From a virus, in IMG/VR virus record IMGVR_UViG_3300021519_001203, positions 1 through 36,082 of that record: 36,082 nt of DNA. One strand, 5' to 3'. The notes beneath the pieces are model-generated. The model worked only from the letters and a program-made list of their open reading frames with translations, did not search any database and had not been told where the DNA came from. Of this stretch, positions 161-34,171 are shown one piece after another; the first letter of the stretch is position 1, and every line of letters begins with the position of its first letter. Both the position numbers and the translations under genes were made by a program.

Positions 161-523
161 ATGGCAACAAATTCTTTACAGGTTACATCTTCACCAACAA
201 CTCAAAGTTTTTTTGACAATTATTATAGTCAGTCTATTCCAGTAGATTCTGCTATATATGATCGTGTATTAACATTTTTTAAGTCTAAGACAACTAGTAC
301 ACTTGCAGCAGAACAACTAACTCAAACAGTTATAGCATTAACTTACAAAAATAAGTTGGATCCAATTGCAATAATTAACGATTTTGATAAAGCTGCTAAT
401 TCATCTGAACTTAAACCTTTGTTTATAACTTTTTTTAATAGTCTGCGAAATCCAACTAGTAAAATTGGATTTGGAAATCCATTAAAAACTAACCAATGGA
501 TTCAAAGGAATATTATTCAATGA
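161..523 (+). CDS. conserved small T4-like phage protein, probably virion-associated
   Basis: A 120-residue soluble protein with no signal peptide or membrane segment. The N-terminal 25 residues are Ser/Thr/Gln rich; the middle is predicted helical (IYDRVLTFFKSK, LAAEQLTQTVIALTY), and the C-terminus has a phage-like ending around LGF/IGFGNP and QRNIIQ. I recall similar short proteins beside gp3/gp4 in marine T4-like phages, where they are annotated as structural or hypothetical. Its TGA stop overlaps the proposed ATG of gp4 (ATGA at 520-523), which indicates translational coupling with head completion. No catalytic motif is visible. Function is unassigned. Confidence 0.7.
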   Translation: MATNSLQVTSSPTTQSFFDNYYSQSIPVDSAIYDRVLTFFKSKTTSTLAAEQLTQTVIALTYKNKLDPIAIINDFDKAANSSELKPLFITFFNSLRNPTSKIGFGNPLKTNQWIQRNIIQ

Positions 524-972
524 GTACATATGCAAAAGGAAAGTATAGATTAAAAAATCCAGCAAAGTACACAGGAAAGAAAATTCCCACATATCGCAGT
601 AGCTGGGAATGGGCATTTATGAACTTCTGCGATAATAATTCAAGCGTATTGCATTGGGCAAGCGAATCAATCAACATTCCTTATTTCAATCCATTTACTA
701 ATAGACAAACAATATATGTGCCTGACTTCTTTGTATTGTATCAAGATAAAAATGGTAAAAATCATGCTGAGATGATTGAAATTAAACCCAGCGGGGAAGT
801 AATGGAAACTGTTGGTAAGGGTATTAGAAATCAAGCAATGGCAGCACTAAATGCTATTAAGTGGGATGCAGCTAGAAAATGGTGTGCAAATAATGGCGTT
901 ATTTTTAGAGTTATTACTGAAGCTGATATGTTTCAAAATAGTAAAAAACCTAAGAAGTTTAAAGTTAGGTAA
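520..972 (+). CDS. 4: head completion protein, T4 gp4 family (PD-(D/E)xK nuclease fold)
   Basis: 150 residues from ATG 520, the same length as T4 gp4 as I recall it. T4 gp4 acts at the end of DNA packaging, preparing the filled head for tail joining. The fold is that of TnsA/PD-(D/E)xK nucleases, and the expected residues are visible: E30 in RSSWE, D69 in VPDF, and the E87-I-K89 pair after a beta strand. An upstream in-frame ATG at 496 would add eight residues (MDSKEYYS). I prefer 520 because it forms an ATGA overlap with the upstream stop and has AAGGA about ten bases before it. The gene is followed after eight bases by the small terminase. Family assignment is strong; nuclease activity is inferred from motif conservation. 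Confidence 0.88.
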   Translation: MSTYAKGKYRLKNPAKYTGKKIPTYRSSWEWAFMNFCDNNSSVLHWASESINIPYFNPFTNRQTIYVPDFFVLYQDKNGKNHAEMIEIKPSGEVMETVGKGIRNQAMAALNAIKWDAARKWCANNGVIFRVITEADMFQNSKKPKKFKVR

Positions 973-980
973 TTACTAGT

Positions 981-1412
981 ATGAAGAAACTCGAAGAACT
1001 ATTCAATCTCCCTGAAGTATCAACTGAAGATGTTTCCAAAGAAGACATAAAGCAAGCATTAACTGCTGCTAATAACATTGATTCTATACTACCAAGTGAA
1101 CCAGATAATACAACTGATCGTGAACTTGATGAGTTAACTGACAAGGCAATGGAAAGTTTTGAGAACTTAATGAGCCTTGGTATGAATGTTGAAGCACGAT
1201 TTAGTGCTCCTATATTTGATAGTGCAAGTAAAATGCTGGGACATGCCGTTACAGCTAAGTTGGGTAAAGCACAGAAAAAGCTCAAAGAAACTGAACTTAA
1301 GATGCGTTTAATGAAGATGCAAGCTGATAAGAAGCCTGAAGATGAAACTGTTAGCGTAGAAGCTCGTGTTTGGGACAGAAATGAATTGATAAGAAATCTC
1401 AAACAACAATAA
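981..1412 (+). CDS. 16: terminase small subunit, gp16-like
   Basis: 143 residues, largely helical and charged. The N-terminal third is acidic (about residues 1-50) and the central part carries long amphipathic helices (ESFENLMSLGMNVEARF, KMLGHAVTAKLGKAQKKL) typical of the oligomerising core of T4 gp16. The C-terminus ends in a short hydrophilic tail. T4 gp16 forms a ring that regulates the gp17 motor and recognises DNA for packaging. It lies just after gp4. Unlike in T4, the large subunit is not the next gene but about 3.3 kb downstream. The call rests on recalled sequence pattern, length and position, as small terminases are poorly conserved. A general coiled-coil head protein is the alternative. 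Confidence 0.72.
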   Translation: MKKLEELFNLPEVSTEDVSKEDIKQALTAANNIDSILPSEPDNTTDRELDELTDKAMESFENLMSLGMNVEARFSAPIFDSASKMLGHAVTAKLGKAQKKLKETELKMRLMKMQADKKPEDETVSVEARVWDRNELIRNLKQQ

Positions 1413-1435: not shown

Positions 1436-2005
1436 ATGAGATCTTTAAAAGAGTATCTTACAGAGAATGCGAAACAGTACATGTTTCGAGTTAGAGTTGC
1501 TTGTGACTGTGATACAGCCAAGTTAAAAGCAGCACTTGCAAAATATGATGTTGATGACATTAGTGAACCAAAGCGTATTCCAATTACACAAAAGGCATAT
1601 GGTTTTGATCACCTAGATAATCCACAGATACATATTATTGATATAGTAACAAACTATCCTTGCACACCAACTGAATTGTCTTCTGTATTCAATGAAGTTG
1701 GTATTCCTGCTAGTATGGTAATGGTAACTACTCCAAATCAAGAAGTATTGATTGCACCAATTGCCTCTGAAGCAGGTGAAGGTAAAGCAATTCTTGGCAA
1801 GGATCTTCCCAATAACACTTATCCTCAAATACTAGCTGACTTAGAACAAGCTATAGCTAAGAAAGAACCAGGTAAGTATCAATATACATATGCTGCTAAG
1901 AAAACCTCAACAGGTCAAACTTCAAATGATCTTCCTCAGGGCAACATGAGTCCAGTTGGTTCAAAACAGAATAAATTACCTACACCTAAAAAGAGACAAG
2001 GATAA
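1436..2005 (+). CDS. putative internal head protein with T4-style capsid-targeting N-terminus
   Basis: 189 residues. The first ten, MRSLKEYLTE, closely resemble the capsid-targeting sequence of T4 internal proteins (MKTYQEFIAE), including the (L/I)-x-E site where gp21 protease cuts in the prohead. I infer cleavage after E10. The body (about 15-105) looks like two alpha-beta units: YMFRVRVACDCDTAKLKAAL and QIHIIDIVTNYPCTPTELSS. It is followed by a low-complexity tail rich in Lys, Pro, Ser and Gln that ends PTPKKRQG. A basic, disordered tail would suit a DNA-associated packaged protein. It follows a late-promoter motif and precedes two more genes with similar N-termini. No enzyme family was recognised. 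Confidence 0.7.
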   Translation: MRSLKEYLTENAKQYMFRVRVACDCDTAKLKAALAKYDVDDISEPKRIPITQKAYGFDHLDNPQIHIIDIVTNYPCTPTELSSVFNEVGIPASMVMVTTPNQEVLIAPIASEAGEGKAILGKDLPNNTYPQILADLEQAIAKKEPGKYQYTYAAKKTSTGQTSNDLPQGNMSPVGSKQNKLPTPKKRQG

Positions 2006-2010
2006 TAACC

Positions 2011-2916
2011 ATGCAAATGATTGACGTATTAACAAAGCTAAGAGAGATTGCAGAGCGCAGTCCAGAAGAAATTGGTCGTGCTATTGCTGCTGCTGAAAAG
2101 ATGTCAGGTAATCCTGTGTCTGAGGCTTCTGAAGCACAGAAGGCTGCTCGTGAGAAGTTTAAGAACATGCTCAATGGCAAAAAGGATGACAAGGACGGCG
2201 AAAAGAAGACTGAGTCCTCAGGTAAGAAGCCAGACTATCTAGATTTTGATAAGGATGGCGATAAGAAGGAGCCAATGACTAAGGCTCTTAAGGACAAGGA
2301 AGAAAAGAAGGTTGAGGAAGCTAAGGGCAAGAAGCCTGATTTCCTTGATATGGACAAGGATGGCGACAAAGAAGAGCCAATGACTAAGGCTGTTAAGGAC
2401 AAGGAAGATAAGAAGGTTGACGAGGATGTGCAGATTACACTAAGTGGTAGTGATGCTGTTCTTGCTGAAATTCTAAAGCTTGCTGGTCAGATTGGTGCTA
2501 AGACTACTAAGGGTCCTGAGGCTGCTGGCCCAATGGGCGGACCTGCACCAATGGGTGCTCCTGCTCCTGCACTACCTGCTCCAACTGGAATGCCTCCAAC
2601 TGGTCCAATTCCAAGTCTTGCATCAATGATGGGTGATGAACCAAGTATGCCAAGTGTTGGCGACGGCATGGCAATGGACACTCCAATGGATGTTGACATT
2701 GGTGGACCATCAATGGGCCCCGGTGGAGAAGAGCCTGGAATGGGCGATGATCCAATGATGGACGGCGCATTTGATGCTTCAACAACGCCAAACCCAACTA
2801 CAATGGGAATGGGTGCTGCTATCCCTTCAGGTAATGATCTTTCAAAGCCTAAGATGACTGCCCCAAGAGTTGCACCTGGAGATAATCCACTCCATAGTGC
2901 GATGTCATTTGGTTAA
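2011..2916 (+). CDS. acidic repeat protein with Asp-rich EF-hand-like loops and a Pro/Met/Gly-rich tail; possible scaffold or cargo
   Basis: 301 residues with three parts. Residues 1-55 are helical and charged. Residues 60-140 are Lys/Asp/Glu-rich and hold two tandem copies of a ~31-residue unit built around DFDKDGDKKEPMTKA and DMDKDGDKEEPMTKA. Residues 165-301 are disordered and rich in Pro, Met, Gly and Ala. The D-x-D-x-D-G core resembles an EF-hand or dockerin calcium loop, but the final Glu ligand is not at its usual place, so metal binding is only suggested. The 623-aa protein at 6345 carries a third copy. The charge and position between terminase genes suggest a prohead core or internal protein; I do not recognise a named family. 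ATG 2011 lies five bases after the upstream stop; ATG 2017 (MIDVLTK) is an alternative. Confidence 0.68.
   Translation: MQMIDVLTKLREIAERSPEEIGRAIAAAEKMSGNPVSEASEAQKAAREKFKNMLNGKKDDKDGEKKTESSGKKPDYLDFDKDGDKKEPMTKALKDKEEKKVEEAKGKKPDFLDMDKDGDKEEPMTKAVKDKEDKKVDEDVQITLSGSDAVLAEILKLAGQIGAKTTKGPEAAGPMGGPAPMGAPAPALPAPTGMPPTGPIPSLASMMGDEPSMPSVGDGMAMDTPMDVDIGGPSMGPGGEEPGMGDDPMMDGAFDASTTPNPTTMGMGAAIPSGNDLSKPKMTAPRVAPGDNPLHSAMSFG
2224..2316 (+). repeat. Asp-rich repeat unit, copy 1
   Basis: It encodes KKPDYLDFDKDGDKKEP followed by MTKALKDKEEKK. It is nearly identical in DNA to copy 3 at 8058-8150 (a 26-base exact run inside a longer close match), and similar in protein to copy 2 at 2329. Confidence 0.85.
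2329..2421 (+). repeat. Asp-rich repeat unit, copy 2
   Basis: It encodes KKPDFLDMDKDGDKEEP followed by MTKAVKDKEDKK. It is tandem to copy 1 with a 12-base spacer and more diverged at the DNA level than copies 1 and 3 are from each other. Confidence 0.85.
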
Positions 2917-2921
2917 TTAGA

Positions 2922-3275
2922 ATGAGAGCAAAGGAATTCATATCAGAATCATTAGCTAAGGCTCACGCAGAACATATCTGCGCTATGAGCCCTAGCATGG
3001 TTATGCATGATATGGATCCTGGGTATGAGTATTATAGATTTATGAGTATTGTTGCAGGTGATGGTGAATCAGAAATGAATCCACGACATGAACACTTTAA
3101 TGCAACTCCGTTTGCTCTAGCTTACACTGCTGAAGAACACGAAATGCTTATACGTGGATTGAAAAGAATGGGTAAGCGACATAAAAAAGTATCTAAGAAT
3201 AAAAGCTCGGAGCACGGAAATACTCACAGTGCCAGCCCTGTAGCTGTTACTAAACGCAACAAATATGGGGTCTAA
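2922..3275 (+). CDS. putative internal head protein with capsid-targeting-like N-terminus
   Basis: 117 residues starting MRAKEFISES. The first nine residues match the pattern of T4 internal-protein targeting peptides (MKTYQEFIAE) with I-S-E as the likely gp21 protease site. The mature part is unusual: His- and Met-rich (HAEHICAMSPSMVMHDMD), a central helical stretch with YTAEEHEMLIRGLKRMG, and a basic tail (KRHKKVSKNKSSEHG). The stretch DEELAIINAA in the next gene parallels EEHEMLIRGL here, and both tails end in Ser/Asn and basic residues, so the two are probably paralogues. The Shine-Dalgarno is weak, suggesting coupling to the preceding gene five bases upstream. Function in the host, if ejected, is unknown. 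Confidence 0.68.
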   Translation: MRAKEFISESLAKAHAEHICAMSPSMVMHDMDPGYEYYRFMSIVAGDGESEMNPRHEHFNATPFALAYTAEEHEMLIRGLKRMGKRHKKVSKNKSSEHGNTHSASPVAVTKRNKYGV

Positions 3276-3276
3276 T

Positions 3277-3669
3277 ATGAGAGCAAAAGAATTCGTTATC
3301 GAAACTGATATTGGAGCTAACCCTAACGATCTTCCAACTGATCAAGTAGCTGCTATTAAAGGTGCTGTTAGTATGCCTGATGTTAGCATAAACAAGAGTA
3401 ATGGTAATCCATATACAAATTATCGTTTTGGAATTGCATTAGCCGGCGCCCCCGACTTTCCAACAAAAGCAGCAGGCGCATTTGCTGGCGACCCTTTATT
3501 ATCCACTTATACCGATGAAGAATTAGCAATAATCAATGCTGCTGCTGATATGGTTGGTGCAGGAAGAGTAAAGCAATTAAGTAGCAATCGTAGTACAGAA
3601 TTAAGTAATACTCAAAAAGTAAGTCCAGTACCACAAAACAGCGGTAAGCATATCAAACGACGTTCATGA
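3277..3669 (+). CDS. putative internal head protein, paralogue of the preceding gene
   Basis: 130 residues starting MRAKEFVIET. An in-frame ATG at 3265 lies inside the previous gene and would add MGSN. I choose 3277 because it puts MRAKEF at the very N-terminus, as in the neighbour, and sits one base after the upstream stop. The V-I-E triplet fits a gp21-type prohead protease site. The mature part contains an Asn/Asp-rich stretch (TDIGANPNDLPTDQ), a YTDEELAIINAAADMVGAG helix like that of the previous gene, and a tail ending with basic residues (KHIKRRS). The stop overlaps the next ATG (ATGA at 3666-3669). No known domain was recognised. Confidence 0.68.
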   Translation: MRAKEFVIETDIGANPNDLPTDQVAAIKGAVSMPDVSINKSNGNPYTNYRFGIALAGAPDFPTKAAGAFAGDPLLSTYTDEELAIINAAADMVGAGRVKQLSSNRSTELSNTQKVSPVPQNSGKHIKRRS

Positions 3670-3935
3670 AACAATATCGAATCAACACAAATAATTACTT
3701 GCCCGATACTGAATGCACCTTAAGCCCTGGTGATCCGATACATGATATGATTGCTGCTCAATACATGGATGGCTTAAATGCTGTTACAAGAAGCAATGAA
3801 CGTAAACTCCAAATACAAGCAGAAGCAGAGGAAACTAAAGCCCCTCTGCTACAATATGCTAAAGAATATGGAATTAAACCAGGTAGCCCTGCTTGGTACG
3901 CACTACACGGAACAACCACTACAAGACGTCGTTAA
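3666..3935 (+). CDS. small hypothetical phage protein
   Basis: 89 residues, start coupled to the upstream stop by an ATGA overlap. The middle is helical (NAVTRSNERKLQIQAEAEETKAPLLQYAKE) and the end reads GIKPGSPAWYALHGTTTTRRR, a basic tail. It has no capsid-targeting-like N-terminus, unlike its two upstream neighbours. It ends convergently with the HNH gene; the two stops share TTAA at 3932-3935. I do not recognise a family. Confidence 0.6.
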   Translation: MKQYRINTNNYLPDTECTLSPGDPIHDMIAAQYMDGLNAVTRSNERKLQIQAEAEETKAPLLQYAKEYGIKPGSPAWYALHGTTTTRRR

Positions 3936-4441
3936 GATAAGAATGGCACCCAGCTTGGATGTTTAATCTCATAATTATGATTCTTACGCCTAGCTGACAA
4001 CTGCCAATAATCAGGTTTAAATGGTTCCCTAATTGGCTTTTGATAGTTGTCCTTCTTCTCTTGGTTACATGGCACACAAGCAGCAACACAATTTTCCCAA
4101 TTGGTTTTACCGCCCTTAGATCTAGGTCTAACATGGTCAATTGTTAATTCGTGATGATCGCATATTTCACCACAATATTGACACTGATACAGATCACGAA
4201 GATACATATTAACACGACTGAATCTTACACCTTTTTTAAAGGCATGATAATCTTTGGTTATTGCCAGTGCTGGAACCATTAGTGTGGTGCTGGGGCTATG
4301 TACTACCCAATCATCATAGTATTCGATGATTTGTATTCGATCCATAAACTGGAGCTTGATAGCCTGTTGCCAATTAATAACTGACAAGGGTAACCAACTA
4401 AGAGGCTGCCAGTTAGCATTGAGTATTAGAGTTGCTGACAT
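3932..4441 (-). CDS. HNH endonuclease
   Basis: 169 residues. The N-terminal half (1-80) matches the pattern of a common bacterial stand-alone HNH family (start LILNANWQPLSWLPLS, then a VVHSPS segment and FSRVNMYLRD). The nuclease core follows: zinc cysteines C87-x2-C90 (CQYC), the His of LTIDHVRPRSKGG at H103, the Asn-rich TNWENCV at 114-119, and C122-x2-C125 (CVPC) then N126. Such enzymes nick or cut DNA using the HNH His and a divalent metal. It lies on the opposite strand between the small and large terminase genes with its own sigma70-like promoter, which suits a mobile homing endonuclease. HNH proteins beside terminases can also assist packaging. A restriction-type role cannot be excluded. 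Confidence 0.88.
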   Translation of the reverse strand: MSATLILNANWQPLSWLPLSVINWQQAIKLQFMDRIQIIEYYDDWVVHSPSTTLMVPALAITKDYHAFKKGVRFSRVNMYLRDLYQCQYCGEICDHHELTIDHVRPRSKGGKTNWENCVAACVPCNQEKKDNYQKPIREPFKPDYWQLSARRKNHNYEIKHPSWVPFLS

Positions 4442-4513: not shown

Positions 4514-4762
4514 ATGAGACGTTGGAGCGATTGGCGAGTTACTACCCTTCACATATACTACTATATGCCTGACCATCTGTTGCTATTGCAAGAGTTTCTT
4601 TGGCAAACAGAGGATCTTGTCCCTGAATTTCCCCGTATACATAAATTCTTAAATCATTGGAAAGTGAATATCGAAGCCCCGATCCAAACAGTAAATGTCT
4701 CATATACTGATCCATTTGATAAAACTAGATATATAAATTGCAACCAAATGTTTGATATATGA
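4514..4762 (+). CDS. conserved small protein preceding gp17 in marine T4-like phages
   Basis: 82 residues from ATG 4514 (MRRWSDWRV). An upstream TTG at 4496 is less likely. The core YYMPDHLLLLQEFLWQTEDL and FPRIHKFLNHWKVNIEA is a pattern I recall from small unannotated proteins immediately upstream of gp17 in cyanophage-like T4 relatives. It is hydrophobic and helical but has no clear membrane segment. Its TGA overlaps the gp17 ATG (ATGA, 4759-4762), so the two are translationally coupled and likely cooperate in packaging. Function is unknown. AATAAATA at 4501-4508 lies only five bases before the ATG. Confidence 0.72.
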   Translation: MRRWSDWRVTTLHIYYYMPDHLLLLQEFLWQTEDLVPEFPRIHKFLNHWKVNIEAPIQTVNVSYTDPFDKTRYINCNQMFDI

Positions 4763-6318
4763 GCGGCGTAGATGATCTAATTAAAAAACCATATATGAGA
4801 ATGTCATATACTGATGCACAGAAGTTGCATCTGCTTGAGTGTGCTGATATGACAACAGGTCCAATGTACTTTATGGAACACTTTTTCTATATTCAGCACC
4901 CATTGCGTGGTCGTATACAATTTGTACCATTTGATTACCAAATTGAACTAATTGCAAACTACCATGGTAATCGTTTTAGTATTAATATGCTTGGACGTCA
5001 AATGGGTAAAACTACCTGCGCAGCTGGATATCTACTTTGGTATGCAATGTTTATACCTGATTGCACTATCCTTATTGCTGCTCACAAGTATACTGGCGCA
5101 CAGGAAATCATGCAGCGTATTAGATATGCTTATGAAGCTGTACCTGATTTTATTCGTTGTGGTGTTACAAGTTACAATAAAGGATCAATTGAATTTGATA
5201 ACGGTTCACGTATTGTAAGTGCTACAACAACTGAAACTACTGGTCGTGGTATGAGTATTTCGCTACTGTACTGCGACGAGTTTGCCTTCGTCCGACCGAC
5301 TATTGCTCGTGAATTTTGGACTTCTATTAGTCCAACACTGTCAACTGGTGGTAAAGCAATTGTTACAAGTACTCCAAACAGCGATGAAGATCAATTTGCT
5401 GATATTTGGCGTGTTGCTAATCATAAGTTTGATGAATTTGGCAATGAAACCAAGTTAGGTAAGAATGGGTTTGCACCAATCATGTTCCCATGGGATAGAC
5501 ATCCAGAACGTACTCGAGCATGGGCAGAGCAAGAACGTGCAAGTATTGGTGATGATAGATTTAAACGTGAACATGAATGTAAATTCATTATCTTTGATGA
5601 GACACTTATTGCTCCAAGTAAACTAGCAATCATGGATGGTGTTAATCCAATTGAAAAGCAAGGACAGGTGCGTTGGTATGAAAAACCAGTTAGAGGTAAT
5701 ATATATGGTGTGGCCCTTGATCCTAGTTTGGGTACTGGCGGCGACCCAGCTGCTATACAAGTATGGAATCTTACTACCTTAACTCAAGCTGCTGAATGGC
5801 AACACAATCTAACTGTTATTCAACGACAAGTTGGAATAATGAGTGAGATATGTAGATACATTGTAGAAATAACAGATGAGTCTGAAAACTTATACTATAG
5901 TGTTGAAAACAATACAATTGGCGAAGCAGCACTTAATGCAATATACGACATTGGTGAAGAAAGAATTGCAGGAAACTTTCTAAGTGAACCGGGTGTTCCT
6001 GGAAATGGACGTAGATATCGCAAAGGATTTAATACAAGTCATCGCAGTAAAATTGCAGCTTGTGCTAAATTAAAACTGTGGGTAGAGCAGGATAAAATGA
6101 TTATTAGAAGTAAAAGTCTAATAAGTGAACTTAAAAACTTTGTTGCATTAGGCAACACATATAAGGCTAAGATCGGCGAAACTGATGATCTTGTAATGAG
6201 TACGCTACTAGCAGTTAGAATGGCAATGATGTTACGTCAATATGATTCAGATTTAAGTGAAACATTAACAGATAGCTTGGAAGATATCATTGAACCTATG
6301 CCATTTCTTATTGCCTAA
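4759..6318 (+). CDS. 17: terminase large subunit, packaging ATPase-nuclease gp17
   Basis: 519 residues, slightly shorter than T4 gp17 (about 610). This is the motor that pumps DNA into the prohead and cuts the concatemer. ATPase domain: Walker A GRQMGKTT at 79-86, Walker B SLLYCDEFAF at about 168-177 with D173/E174, and the coupling motif TSTP at 203-206. Nuclease domain (RNase H-like): D321 in YGVALDPSLG, E383 in SVENN and D476/D477 in TDDLVMSTLLAVRM supply the expected acidic triad. The start is fixed by the ATGA overlap with the upstream small gene. It is complete with no missing catalytic residue. The downstream gene begins 26 bases later on the same strand. Confidence 0.96.
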   Translation: MSGVDDLIKKPYMRMSYTDAQKLHLLECADMTTGPMYFMEHFFYIQHPLRGRIQFVPFDYQIELIANYHGNRFSINMLGRQMGKTTCAAGYLLWYAMFIPDCTILIAAHKYTGAQEIMQRIRYAYEAVPDFIRCGVTSYNKGSIEFDNGSRIVSATTTETTGRGMSISLLYCDEFAFVRPTIAREFWTSISPTLSTGGKAIVTSTPNSDEDQFADIWRVANHKFDEFGNETKLGKNGFAPIMFPWDRHPERTRAWAEQERASIGDDRFKREHECKFIIFDETLIAPSKLAIMDGVNPIEKQGQVRWYEKPVRGNIYGVALDPSLGTGGDPAAIQVWNLTTLTQAAEWQHNLTVIQRQVGIMSEICRYIVEITDESENLYYSVENNTIGEAALNAIYDIGEERIAGNFLSEPGVPGNGRRYRKGFNTSHRSKIAACAKLKLWVEQDKMIIRSKSLISELKNFVALGNTYKAKIGETDDLVMSTLLAVRMAMMLRQYDSDLSETLTDSLEDIIEPMPFLIA

Positions 6319-6344: not shown

Positions 6345-8216
6345 ATGGCCGGTATAGAACAAGCAGCAAACGATTTATTCTTTAAACTTAGGAATCGCTT
6401 CCCTAAGATCAACATGGGTGATCAGGAAGGTAATTCCACTAGCAATCCTGCGGATGCAAAATTCTTTAACTTTGATTTTGAAATTGATGGTGTTAAATTT
6501 GGTAATATTACCGCCAGTCTCATTGATACTCAAAAGCTTAAAGTTTATTATTCGTTAGATGTTACACAGTATATGGACAAAGATGATAAGAATGCATGGT
6601 ATAGATTTCTTCAGGAAATTAGAAAGTTTGCCAAATCTCACTTGTTAGGACTGGATGTAAGAGATATTAATAAAGATATACTAACTCATGAGGATTTAAA
6701 ATTCGTGACAAGTCAAAATAAAGAAAAGTCCCTAGTTGGCGAAAGCAAAGTACTATGGGCACGTCGTGGAAAGGTCAGCGAAGGCGATCTAAACAACGTA
6801 AGAATCCATGTTGTTCACAGTGAAAGAATGGATGAAAATACTAATAATAGACTGTTGCGTGTTGACAGAATTTTCCTTGTAAATGAATCAGGTGAAAGAT
6901 TCCTTTTGCCATTTAAAAGTGTAATGGCTGCTAAAGCAATGGCTAATCATGTTAGCAATGGTGGCACACCATATGATAATAATGGTAAGTTAATTAGTAC
7001 AGCAGTTAATGAGATGTCCAATCTACGTCGCTTTGCTAGTGCTACACGTCGTAAGACTTTTGAAAGTGAAGATGCTGTTCATGTTATCGAAGCAGCAGCA
7101 GCAATTAAAGAAAGCATCAAGCGTAGTTTGTTTAGACTTGCAAACAATAGCCGTTTTGATGAGAACATTGAAGATCTTGGCAAAATAATGGCAGAACAGA
7201 CTGATGTGGAAGATATTAAGCCAATGTTTGTTCAACAGGTATATAATGAGAATTTGGATAATTGGATCAATAGCGCCGCAAAGGCTTACAAGCAATATAA
7301 GGGAAATATTATGGAAGCACTCAAAGAATCAGCTGGCGCTGTAGCCTCAAAGTTGAAAGATCCAAGTTGGAGAATGGTACTTAAGGATGATCCAGCAGAA
7401 GATCGTTTGATTGCTAGTAGTAAGTACACTGATGGTAAAGCATTACTTCGTCGTGTACTAGGCACAGTGGCTGATCGTATTGGTATGGATAACAGTGATG
7501 TTGCAAATTGGGCAAGTCAAATTGGTCAAGATATGGATCATGGTAAGGCTTCTCCAGAAGATATGCAGATTGCACTTCAGTTAGCAAAGCGTTATCAGGA
7601 TGACCTAAAGCAAGTTATGGCTAATCCAGATGCGAAGAAAGAACTACGTGTCGCGGCATTTGGACAAAGAAAAGATCTACATGGCAAAGTTAAAGGTGGT
7701 GAAGAAGCAGAGTTTGAAAGCTTTGTTAATGGCATCGGCGAAGGCGACGAAGCAGACATGATGGACGAAATTGACGCTGATGAAGAAGGAATGGGTCAAA
7801 TGAAAGTAAATGAAGTCGACATTGAAGAAACTCCAATGGATAGAATTAGAGAAAGAGCTGCTTCAAGAGAAGTTACTAGTACACCAGCAGAACGTGTAGC
7901 AGAAAGAGTTGCTACTCGTACTGGTGGCACCACAGCAGCAGAACGTGTAGCAGAACGTGTATCAGCTAGACATCCAATGACTAAGGTTGCTGAAAGAGTG
8001 GCAGCAAGAGCAAATCAAGGCGACGAAGTTGTTTCAGAAGTTGGCGACGAAGAAACTAAAAAGCCAGACTATCTAGATTTTGATAAAGATGGTGATGAAA
8101 AAGAGCCAATGACTAAGGCTCTTGACGATAAAGAAGAAAAAGTTGCAGAAGGCATTGAAGTAAATCCAATTAATGATAGTCTAGCTCTTATGAAGAAGTT
8201 AGCAGGCTTAAAATAA
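6345..8216 (+). CDS. large phage protein of unknown function with C-terminal repeats, possibly prohead or virion-associated
   Basis: 623 residues. The N-terminal ~120 residues form a compact alpha-beta domain (LFFKLRNRFPKINMGD, FFNFDFEIDGVKFGNITASL, WYRFLQEIRKFAKSHL) that I recall from conserved hypothetical proteins of marine myophages. Residues about 120-250 hold a second beta-rich domain; 250-460 are mostly helical. The C-terminal third is acidic and disordered, with AERVAERV-type repeats (about 513-556), one Asp-rich DFDKDGDEKEP unit (about 572-602) shared with the protein at 2011, and a last helix NDSLALMKKLAGLK. It lies directly after gp17 and ends before a strong terminator. No N-terminal targeting peptide or enzyme motif was found. 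A virion or scaffold role is inferred from context and the shared repeat. Confidence 0.75.
   Translation: MAGIEQAANDLFFKLRNRFPKINMGDQEGNSTSNPADAKFFNFDFEIDGVKFGNITASLIDTQKLKVYYSLDVTQYMDKDDKNAWYRFLQEIRKFAKSHLLGLDVRDINKDILTHEDLKFVTSQNKEKSLVGESKVLWARRGKVSEGDLNNVRIHVVHSERMDENTNNRLLRVDRIFLVNESGERFLLPFKSVMAAKAMANHVSNGGTPYDNNGKLISTAVNEMSNLRRFASATRRKTFESEDAVHVIEAAAAIKESIKRSLFRLANNSRFDENIEDLGKIMAEQTDVEDIKPMFVQQVYNENLDNWINSAAKAYKQYKGNIMEALKESAGAVASKLKDPSWRMVLKDDPAEDRLIASSKYTDGKALLRRVLGTVADRIGMDNSDVANWASQIGQDMDHGKASPEDMQIALQLAKRYQDDLKQVMANPDAKKELRVAAFGQRKDLHGKVKGGEEAEFESFVNGIGEGDEADMMDEIDADEEGMGQMKVNEVDIEETPMDRIRERAASREVTSTPAERVAERVATRTGGTTAAERVAERVSARHPMTKVAERVAARANQGDEVVSEVGDEETKKPDYLDFDKDGDEKEPMTKALDDKEEKVAEGIEVNPINDSLALMKKLAGLK
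7881..8012 (+). repeat. degenerate AERVAERV coding repeats
   Basis: Three imperfect tandem units encode TPAERVAERVATR, TAAERVAERVSAR and TKVAERVAARA, each with alternating charged and hydrophobic residues consistent with short amphipathic helices. The DNA core gcagaacgtgtagcagaa recurs with few changes, indicating local slippage or duplication. Confidence 0.75.
8058..8150 (+). repeat. Asp-rich repeat unit, copy 3
   Basis: It encodes KKPDYLDFDKDGDEKEP followed by MTKALDDKEEK within the 623-aa protein. The DNA is closest to copy 1 at 2224-2316, 5.8 kb away. Confidence 0.85.
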
Positions 8217-34097: not shown

Positions 34098-34171
34098 GGG
34101 GGTCTAAGCTAACGGGAAACTGGCGCCTTTGCATGGCGCACTTCGGGGTTCGATTCCCCGGGCCTCCACCA
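34098..34171 (+). tRNA. tRNA-Ala (anticodon UGC)
   Basis: Acceptor stem GGGGGTC (34098-34104) with GGCCTCC (34161-34167; two G-U pairs), discriminator A, and an encoded CCA at 34169-34171. The anticodon stem GCGCC/GGCGC holds the loop TTTGCAT, so the anticodon is TGC (reads GCA and GCG). The T-arm is CGGGG-TTCGATT-CCCCG, with a 4-base variable loop. The D-arm AGCT/AACT has one C-A mismatch and the loop AACGGGA, so it is less regular. The GCA codon is frequent in the phage genes here, so the tRNA may support that usage. Confidence 0.85.

Follow-up and report, generated by a model that had tools for sequence, protein, structure and literature searches.

Why should three genes lying among the packaging genes of a giant phage begin with such similar short peptides? 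The window analysed here is the entire IMG/VR record IMGVR_UViG_3300021519_001203, 36,082 bases long, a fragment of a larger T4-like giant phage. Three of its open reading frames (ORFs), ORF1, ORF2 and ORF3, start with MRSLKEYLTE, MRAKEFISE and MRAKEFVIE, as a first-pass annotation had noticed; all three genes exist, with the third start corrected to 3277. T-even internal proteins have only a capsid-targeting sequence (CTS) in common, with diverse bodies behind it (PMC3012670, PMC9026906). It is highly likely that the N-terminal 9-10 residue peptides of ORF1-3 are tags of this T4 type, which a gp21-type protease would cut, the mature proteins staying in the head. This reading is built on the residue pattern, selection at the amino-acid level, modularity, the match to the predicted gp23 cleavage site, the protease in relatives and the virion mass spectrometry (MS) annotation of relatives. 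The genes and their tags are as follows.

1436..2005 (+), ORF1, tagged putative virion protein, 189 amino acids
1436..1465 (+), ORF1 tag MRSLKEYLTE, resembling a capsid-targeting sequence, with the cut predicted after E10
2922..3275 (+), ORF2, small tagged protein of 117 amino acids with a basic tail
2922..2948 (+), ORF2 tag MRAKEFISE, predicted cut after E9
3277..3669 (+), ORF3, small tagged protein of 130 amino acids with a basic tail
3277..3303 (+), ORF3 tag MRAKEFVIE, predicted cut after E9

The predicted propeptides, of 10, 9 and 9 residues, all lie at the extreme N-terminus and end in the gp21 cleavage logo (L/I)-x-E, read as LTE in ORF1, ISE in ORF2 and VIE in ORF3; the V at P3 of ORF3 recurs in 17 of 98 non-redundant ORF2/ORF3 family members. 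ORF3 most likely starts at 3277 and not at 3265, the upstream ATG taken as the mechanical ORF start, since relatives conserve the tag that begins at 3277. ORF2 and ORF3 are paralogues, as had been proposed (30% identity, E 6e-11), and ORF1 belongs to a different family.

The tag as a selected peptide

The pattern is close to that of T4 IPI, IPII and IPIII (Straboviridae), with which it shares an N-terminal tag of 9-19 residues ending in hydrophobic-x-Glu and an [EQ]-F-I-x-E core; the positive control behaves as expected, IPII and IPIII starting MKTYQEFIAE/A (a slash marks a cut). Both systems place one tag on unrelated bodies, a gp21-type protease is encoded by relatives of the window, and some ORF2/ORF3 family members have a shifted site, as T4 IPI does. 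In T4 IPIII the targeting residues are Tyr4 and Phe7 (PMC9026906), and Phe (or Tyr/Ile) is conserved here at the position of Phe7, with nothing corresponding to Tyr4 in the MRAKEF form. The differences from T4 are equally clear. The consensus is M[RK][AI]x[ED][FIL][ILV]xE, the genes lie between gp16 and gp17, there are many more cargo families, and the carriers are environmental giant phages distantly related to T4. ORF1-3 match none of the named internal proteins of PHROGs or Pfam and no T4 record by tblastn, and they are not filed as IPI, IPII or IPIII orthologues because no homologous mature domain was matched. A literature search for the peptide MRAKEF gave no match. The new elements are a tag consensus distinct from that of T4, the occurrence of this tag across environmental giant phages, how large the tagged set is and which enzymes it includes, and possible double labels.

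The frequency of the tag far exceeds that of shuffled N-termini. The strict motif, M[RK]x(2,3)[EDQ][FILY][ILV]xE, was shaped after the sequences had been seen, so the independent tests weigh more than the count in the window, where it starts 3 of 23 genes (mean 0.006 and maximum 1 in 20,000 N-terminal shuffles). In six large tag-bearing contigs that encode an S77 (gp21-type) protease, comprising 2,009 kb and 2,411 crude genes, 39 genes match against a shuffled mean of 0.99 and a maximum of 5 (500 shuffles). Selection at P1 is evident in the same contigs, where Glu occupies that position in 39 genes and the remaining residues together in 25 (D in 4, K in 2), while motifs with the Glu shifted one residue earlier or later occur in 7 genes each. 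Across IMG/VR, MRAKEF[FLIMV]xE at an ATG is found in at least 119 contigs, compared with 7 for a scrambled peptide of equal codon degeneracy, and nearly all the tag matches are true gene starts with a stop close upstream.

The sequences behind these matches also bear on whether the N-terminal conservation belongs to a DNA or RNA element such as a promoter, a ribosome-binding site or a recombination site. The tag peptide is encoded by 117 distinct 27-mers, with wobble changes at every degenerate codon, and this variation in synonymous codons indicates that the tag is selected as a peptide, not as DNA. A late-promoter-like TAAATA does lie close to many starts and the gaps between tandem copies are short, two points in favour of such an element. 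Yet TAAATA precedes 31% of tagged and 23% of untagged genes, which is not clearly above the genome background, and for that reason it is not used as evidence. Conservation of the tag at the DNA level was rejected on the codon variation, which largely refutes the nucleic-acid element and leaves it almost no probability.

The peptide reading is strengthened by members of the ORF2/ORF3 family that the pattern had no part in choosing. Profile searches in the fetched IMG/VR loci yielded 143 distinct family members with a start, mostly of 115-135 amino acids, and in 56 of these the N-terminus was not selected by the tag pattern scan. All but one of the 56 have [ILVMF]xE ending at residues 8-13, compared with 1.75% of equal windows in the protein bodies. 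Tag variants in the family include MRACEFIIE, MRANEFIAE, MKIHEIILE and MKVFEIINE. Moreover, five members that lack a site at position 9 have LxE four residues downstream, at residue 13, in the sequences FIRKQLAE, FIKKQLSE, FARKQLSE, FVRRQLNE and FMRKKLAE. Judged from these sequences, the tag varies as would a protease site.

Protease, cleavage site and virion evidence

A peptide of this kind calls for its protease. Peptidase_S77 (gp21) is encoded in 7 tag-bearing contigs, among them 6 of the 7 that are at least 190 kb long. The nearest large relative, the 338-kb contig G009, encodes it and has a TerL 71% and a gp32 73% identical to those of the window and the same order of genes: gp4, gp16, ORF1, acidic gene, ORF2/ORF3 family, gp17 and gp32. 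In the large relatives gp23 is the gene after gp21 and a scaffold gene. The gp23 cut site, which we take to lie where T4 gp23 is cut, before the conserved mature start, is predicted to read QLLAE/S, KYLAE/S or RYLAE/S in tag-bearing genomes. The tags end in the same manner, in EFITE/S and EYLTE/S, and the YLxE of the ORF1 tag equals that of the KYLAE/S site in related genomes. In some small tagged proteins the likeness to gp23 extends across the predicted cut, the whole junction being common to both; in contig G012, for example, such a protein reads IITE/TATAGSTSASNIAS and gp23 YLAE/SATAGSTSAGNVAT. Three small tagged proteins (G011:174115-174372, G012:118340-118576 and L005:11917) have first mature residues, TATAGATSAGNIAS, that resemble the predicted mature start of gp23.

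Evidence from virions comes from Pseudomonas phage PA5oct. Its protein EST35_0202, encoded at the equivalent place after gp4 and gp16-like genes, is a homologue of ORF1 (hhalign E 6e-18) and is annotated as a 'structural protein, ESI-MS/MS' (electrospray ionization tandem MS). EST35_0150, which starts with MKINDIITE and differs from ORF1-3 in being another small protein, located between the portal and core genes, is likewise structural by its ESI-MS/MS annotation. Paride, a close relative of PA5oct, encodes S77.

Several observations weigh against the capsid-targeting reading or narrow it. The MS annotation covers the ORF1 homologue and EST35_0150 and none of the relatives of ORF2 and ORF3, and EST35_0271, another PA5oct gene with a strict tag, carries no MS note. 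The MRAKEF form has no counterpart of Tyr4. Each of the six large contigs was ascertained through at least one tagged gene, so that 33 of the 39 matches are free of that bias. No gp21/S77 gene is seen in the 36-kb window; since the record is a fragment, the protease that the first-pass annotation expected in this genome is inferred from G009 and the other large relatives that have it. Finally, L8 and E10 are invariant and T9 is at least 90% conserved in an 11-member alignment of the ORF1 tag, but there are ORF1 homologues in which the Glu is missing. G009 has YLLD, with Asp at P1, and EST35_0202 has DYYDA and, unlike ORF1, no LxE site, so not every member of the ORF1 family would be cleaved. 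When P1 is Asp, T4 precursors are still targeted but escape processing (PMC9026906).

The same homologues lend some weight to a different explanation, in which the tag is an N-terminal segment with another job, such as binding a host or phage factor or conferring stability, and is not a capsid signal cut by a protease. Some of them retain MKSF..Y and lose the Glu, and cutting in this clade is a prediction from sequence. Such a segment would hardly be expected to prefer Glu so strongly at one position, to keep LxE four residues further on in proteins that lack the first site, or to have residues equal to those of the predicted gp23 cut site. The S77 protease in most large tag-bearing contigs and the tagged PA5oct protein that is annotated by MS as part of the virion speak against it as well, and this explanation is improbable.

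The claim that the peptides are T4-type CTSs cut by a gp21-type protease has good comparative support from motif enrichment, selection for Glu at P1, the shifted LxE, the gp23-like end, S77 in G009 and the PA5oct MS annotation, except that the ORF1 site is not universal. Following the T4 model of tag-led entry and removal by the protease at head maturation (PMC9026906, PMC3012670), each precursor would enter the prohead core through its tag. The gp21-type S77 protease would then cut after [FIY]-[ILV]-x-E, simultaneously with gp23 maturation, and the mature basic-tailed proteins would remain alongside the DNA inside the head. ORF1-3 are very probably packaged and cut in the phage of the window, and ejection of the mature proteins into the host is plausible. 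A parallel is offered by the phiKZ-like phage SPN3US, of a separate phage lineage, in which a prohead protease of the phage is reported to process a large bolus of head proteins that is then ejected (PMC5694885, PMC10052503).

The bodies behind the tag

The ORF2/ORF3 family is marked by YRxGxAxA in its core, by the motif SxExxxTNxxSPV and by a basic tail, with a net charge of at least +3 over the last 12 residues in 85% of members and 14% of the background. The possibility of a second gp21 site at the C-terminal SPV motif was dismissed, since P3 there is not hydrophobic. Of the 46 loci that also include gp17, 45 have the family 1.1 to about 6.8 kb upstream of that gene, usually as two tandem copies, and these loci span phages with a TerL identity to the window of only about 57-60%. 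In three loci (L017:294-1304, L019:9314-10321 and L020:9296-10396), nucleotidyltransferase-like domains (GRFNPPHKGH, HKGH) precede an ORF3-family body in one fused protein, and in two of these the fusion itself has a tag-like N-terminus, MRLRELFE.

The mature parts had been described as unrelated to known families. No named family was indeed matched, though the ORF2/ORF3 family now has more than 140 distinct IMG/VR members. Neither ORF2 nor ORF3 has relatives among cultured phages by tblastn, and an IMG/VR scan using ORF2 alone found none. An AlphaFold2 model of the ORF3 family is weak and helical (predicted local distance difference test, pLDDT, 78; predicted template modelling score 0.47), and its one notable Foldseek match is an uncharacterised phage protein. 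The model of ORF1, of low confidence (pLDDT 62), predicts a ferredoxin-like domain at residues 15-98 followed by a disordered basic tail, with uncharacterised phage proteins as its best Foldseek matches.

These properties bear on the suggestion that ORF2 and ORF3 are capsid-targeted host-takeover effectors with an anti-defence or transcription-modifying function, comparable to T4 IPI or Alt. In T4 the small protein IPI bears a CTS and counters restriction (PMC9026906, PMC3012670), and plausible effectors do carry the tag in related phages, among them an ADP-ribosyltransferase (E 9.5e-13) and a NUDIX protein (E 1e-25). The single place upstream of gp17, held mostly by two copies across such divergent TerL proteins, together with the common SPV motif and basic tail, resembles a core head component and not a host-specific weapon; nor do ORF2 and ORF3 match any enzymatic or defence-related family in PHROGs or Pfam. 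An effector role for the pair is thus a minority possibility. Their conserved place, duplication and basic tails make it more likely that they are internal DNA-contacting head proteins than host-specific effectors.

Better effector candidates are some of the tagged proteins of related phages, of the ADP-ribosyltransferase, NUDIX, kinase-like and GNAT types. The fetched loci contain 277 tagged proteins that fall into 62 body clusters, a few of which are chance members, such as a thymidylate synthase-like one. Pfam matches on the bodies include NUDIX (1e-25), GH19 (1.9e-15 to 8e-12), 5'-nucleotidase (4e-6) and amidoligase (1e-5), with weak GNAT-like and kinase-like matches. In locus L078 an ADP-ribosyltransferase exoenzyme domain stands behind MRAKEFIPE (Pfam E 9.5e-13) and has no relative in the cultured-phage collection; it can be likened, by domain type only, to T4 Alt, the virion ADP-ribosyltransferase, with the difference that it is outside the window. 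Tagged genes form adjacent runs resembling cargo islands, all on the minus strand, at L078:5135-7946, L137:6650-10317, L123:472-3824 and L080:278-5690. The L078 run includes the ADP-ribosyltransferase-exoenzyme match and the L137 run the NUDIX match, and further members have YHxT-like motifs, as judged by eye. Two tagged bodies have relatives in cyanophages that bear another tag, MKSFKQFQE (Bellamy), or none (S-RSM4), which supports modularity and adds no MS evidence.

A twin-arginine (Tat) signal comes immediately after the tag in L132, L095 and G009, and in two of these cases a GH19-like domain comes next. The protein at L132:4042-4701 (-) combines tag and Tat motif with a GH19 match (E 8e-12), and the one starting at 6890 (-) in L095, also with tag and Tat motif, clusters with it. 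A further protein, at L239:17068-17961 (+), has tag and Tat motif with a weak Pfam TAT_signal match (E 7e-4). The motifs in L132, L095 and L239 are SRRGFLG, TRRGFLG and SRRGFLK. One tentative reading joins these features: the tag may be a general address label in a giant T4-like phage clade, loading a large, exchangeable set of enzymes into the head, and the prohead protease may expose a Tat export signal, so that the injected enzyme is exported by the host to the envelope.

The question of which cargo giant phages bring along in the head and inject is a long-standing one that normally needs a cultured phage and mass spectrometry. A tag readable from sequence makes it a search, covering about 60 body clusters, many of no known function and some with clear enzyme domains. 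Because in related phages dozens of proteins unrelated to one another bear this label, the result is a searchable catalogue of possible cargo. The tag also supplies exact, falsifiable cut sites for proteomics and is a candidate packaging peptide from outside the T4 laboratory lineage.

Gene layout of the window

The left part of the window is a T4-like head/packaging and replication block. Its other features around the tagged genes are these.

496..972 (+), gp4-like protein of head completion (head closure); matches PHROG_218 head closure (E 1.1e-39) and Pfam TnsA-like N (E 6.6e-20)
981..1412 (+), putative gp16-like small subunit of the terminase, identified only from its location and conserved synteny
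2011..2916 (+), acidic protein without a tag, containing DxDxDG repeats (KKPDYLDFDKDGDKKEPMTKAL), isoelectric point 4.7
3666..3935 (+), small protein that lacks a tag, ends in a KPGxxxWxxL-type sequence and is conserved beside the tagged pair
3932..4441 (-), HNH endonuclease gene, located after the tagged genes and before gp17
4759..6318 (+), large terminase subunit gp17; PHROG terminase E 1.9e-116, Pfam Terminase_6N E 1.6e-18

The gp4-like gene marks, by its sequence matches, a T4-like head/neck gene block. The location of the tagged genes between the terminase genes, as first described, holds, with gp17 identified by PHROG and Pfam matches and the gp16-like gene by its position; the latter matched no named Pfam or PHROG family and has a 54% identical counterpart at the equivalent place in G009. 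The span of the tagged genes also holds the untagged acidic gene, which the first-pass annotation did not mention. Its positional equivalent in PA5oct, EST35_0203, is MS-confirmed, and by this correspondence of position the acidic protein is likely to be virion-associated. An EF-hand-like motif, KKPDYLDFDKDGD..EPMTKAL (DxDxDG), is common to this protein and the otherwise different product of 6345-8216.

The small protein at 3666..3935 has no tag of its own, and a protein with a similar end in the IMG/VR locus L013 does have one, MKIRDIITE. The HNH gene has a counterpart at the equivalent place in G009 (59015-59522). Downstream of gp17 the window continues with gp32, UvsX and UvsY, and a lone tRNA-Ala (TGC) gene lies at 34098-34171 (+).

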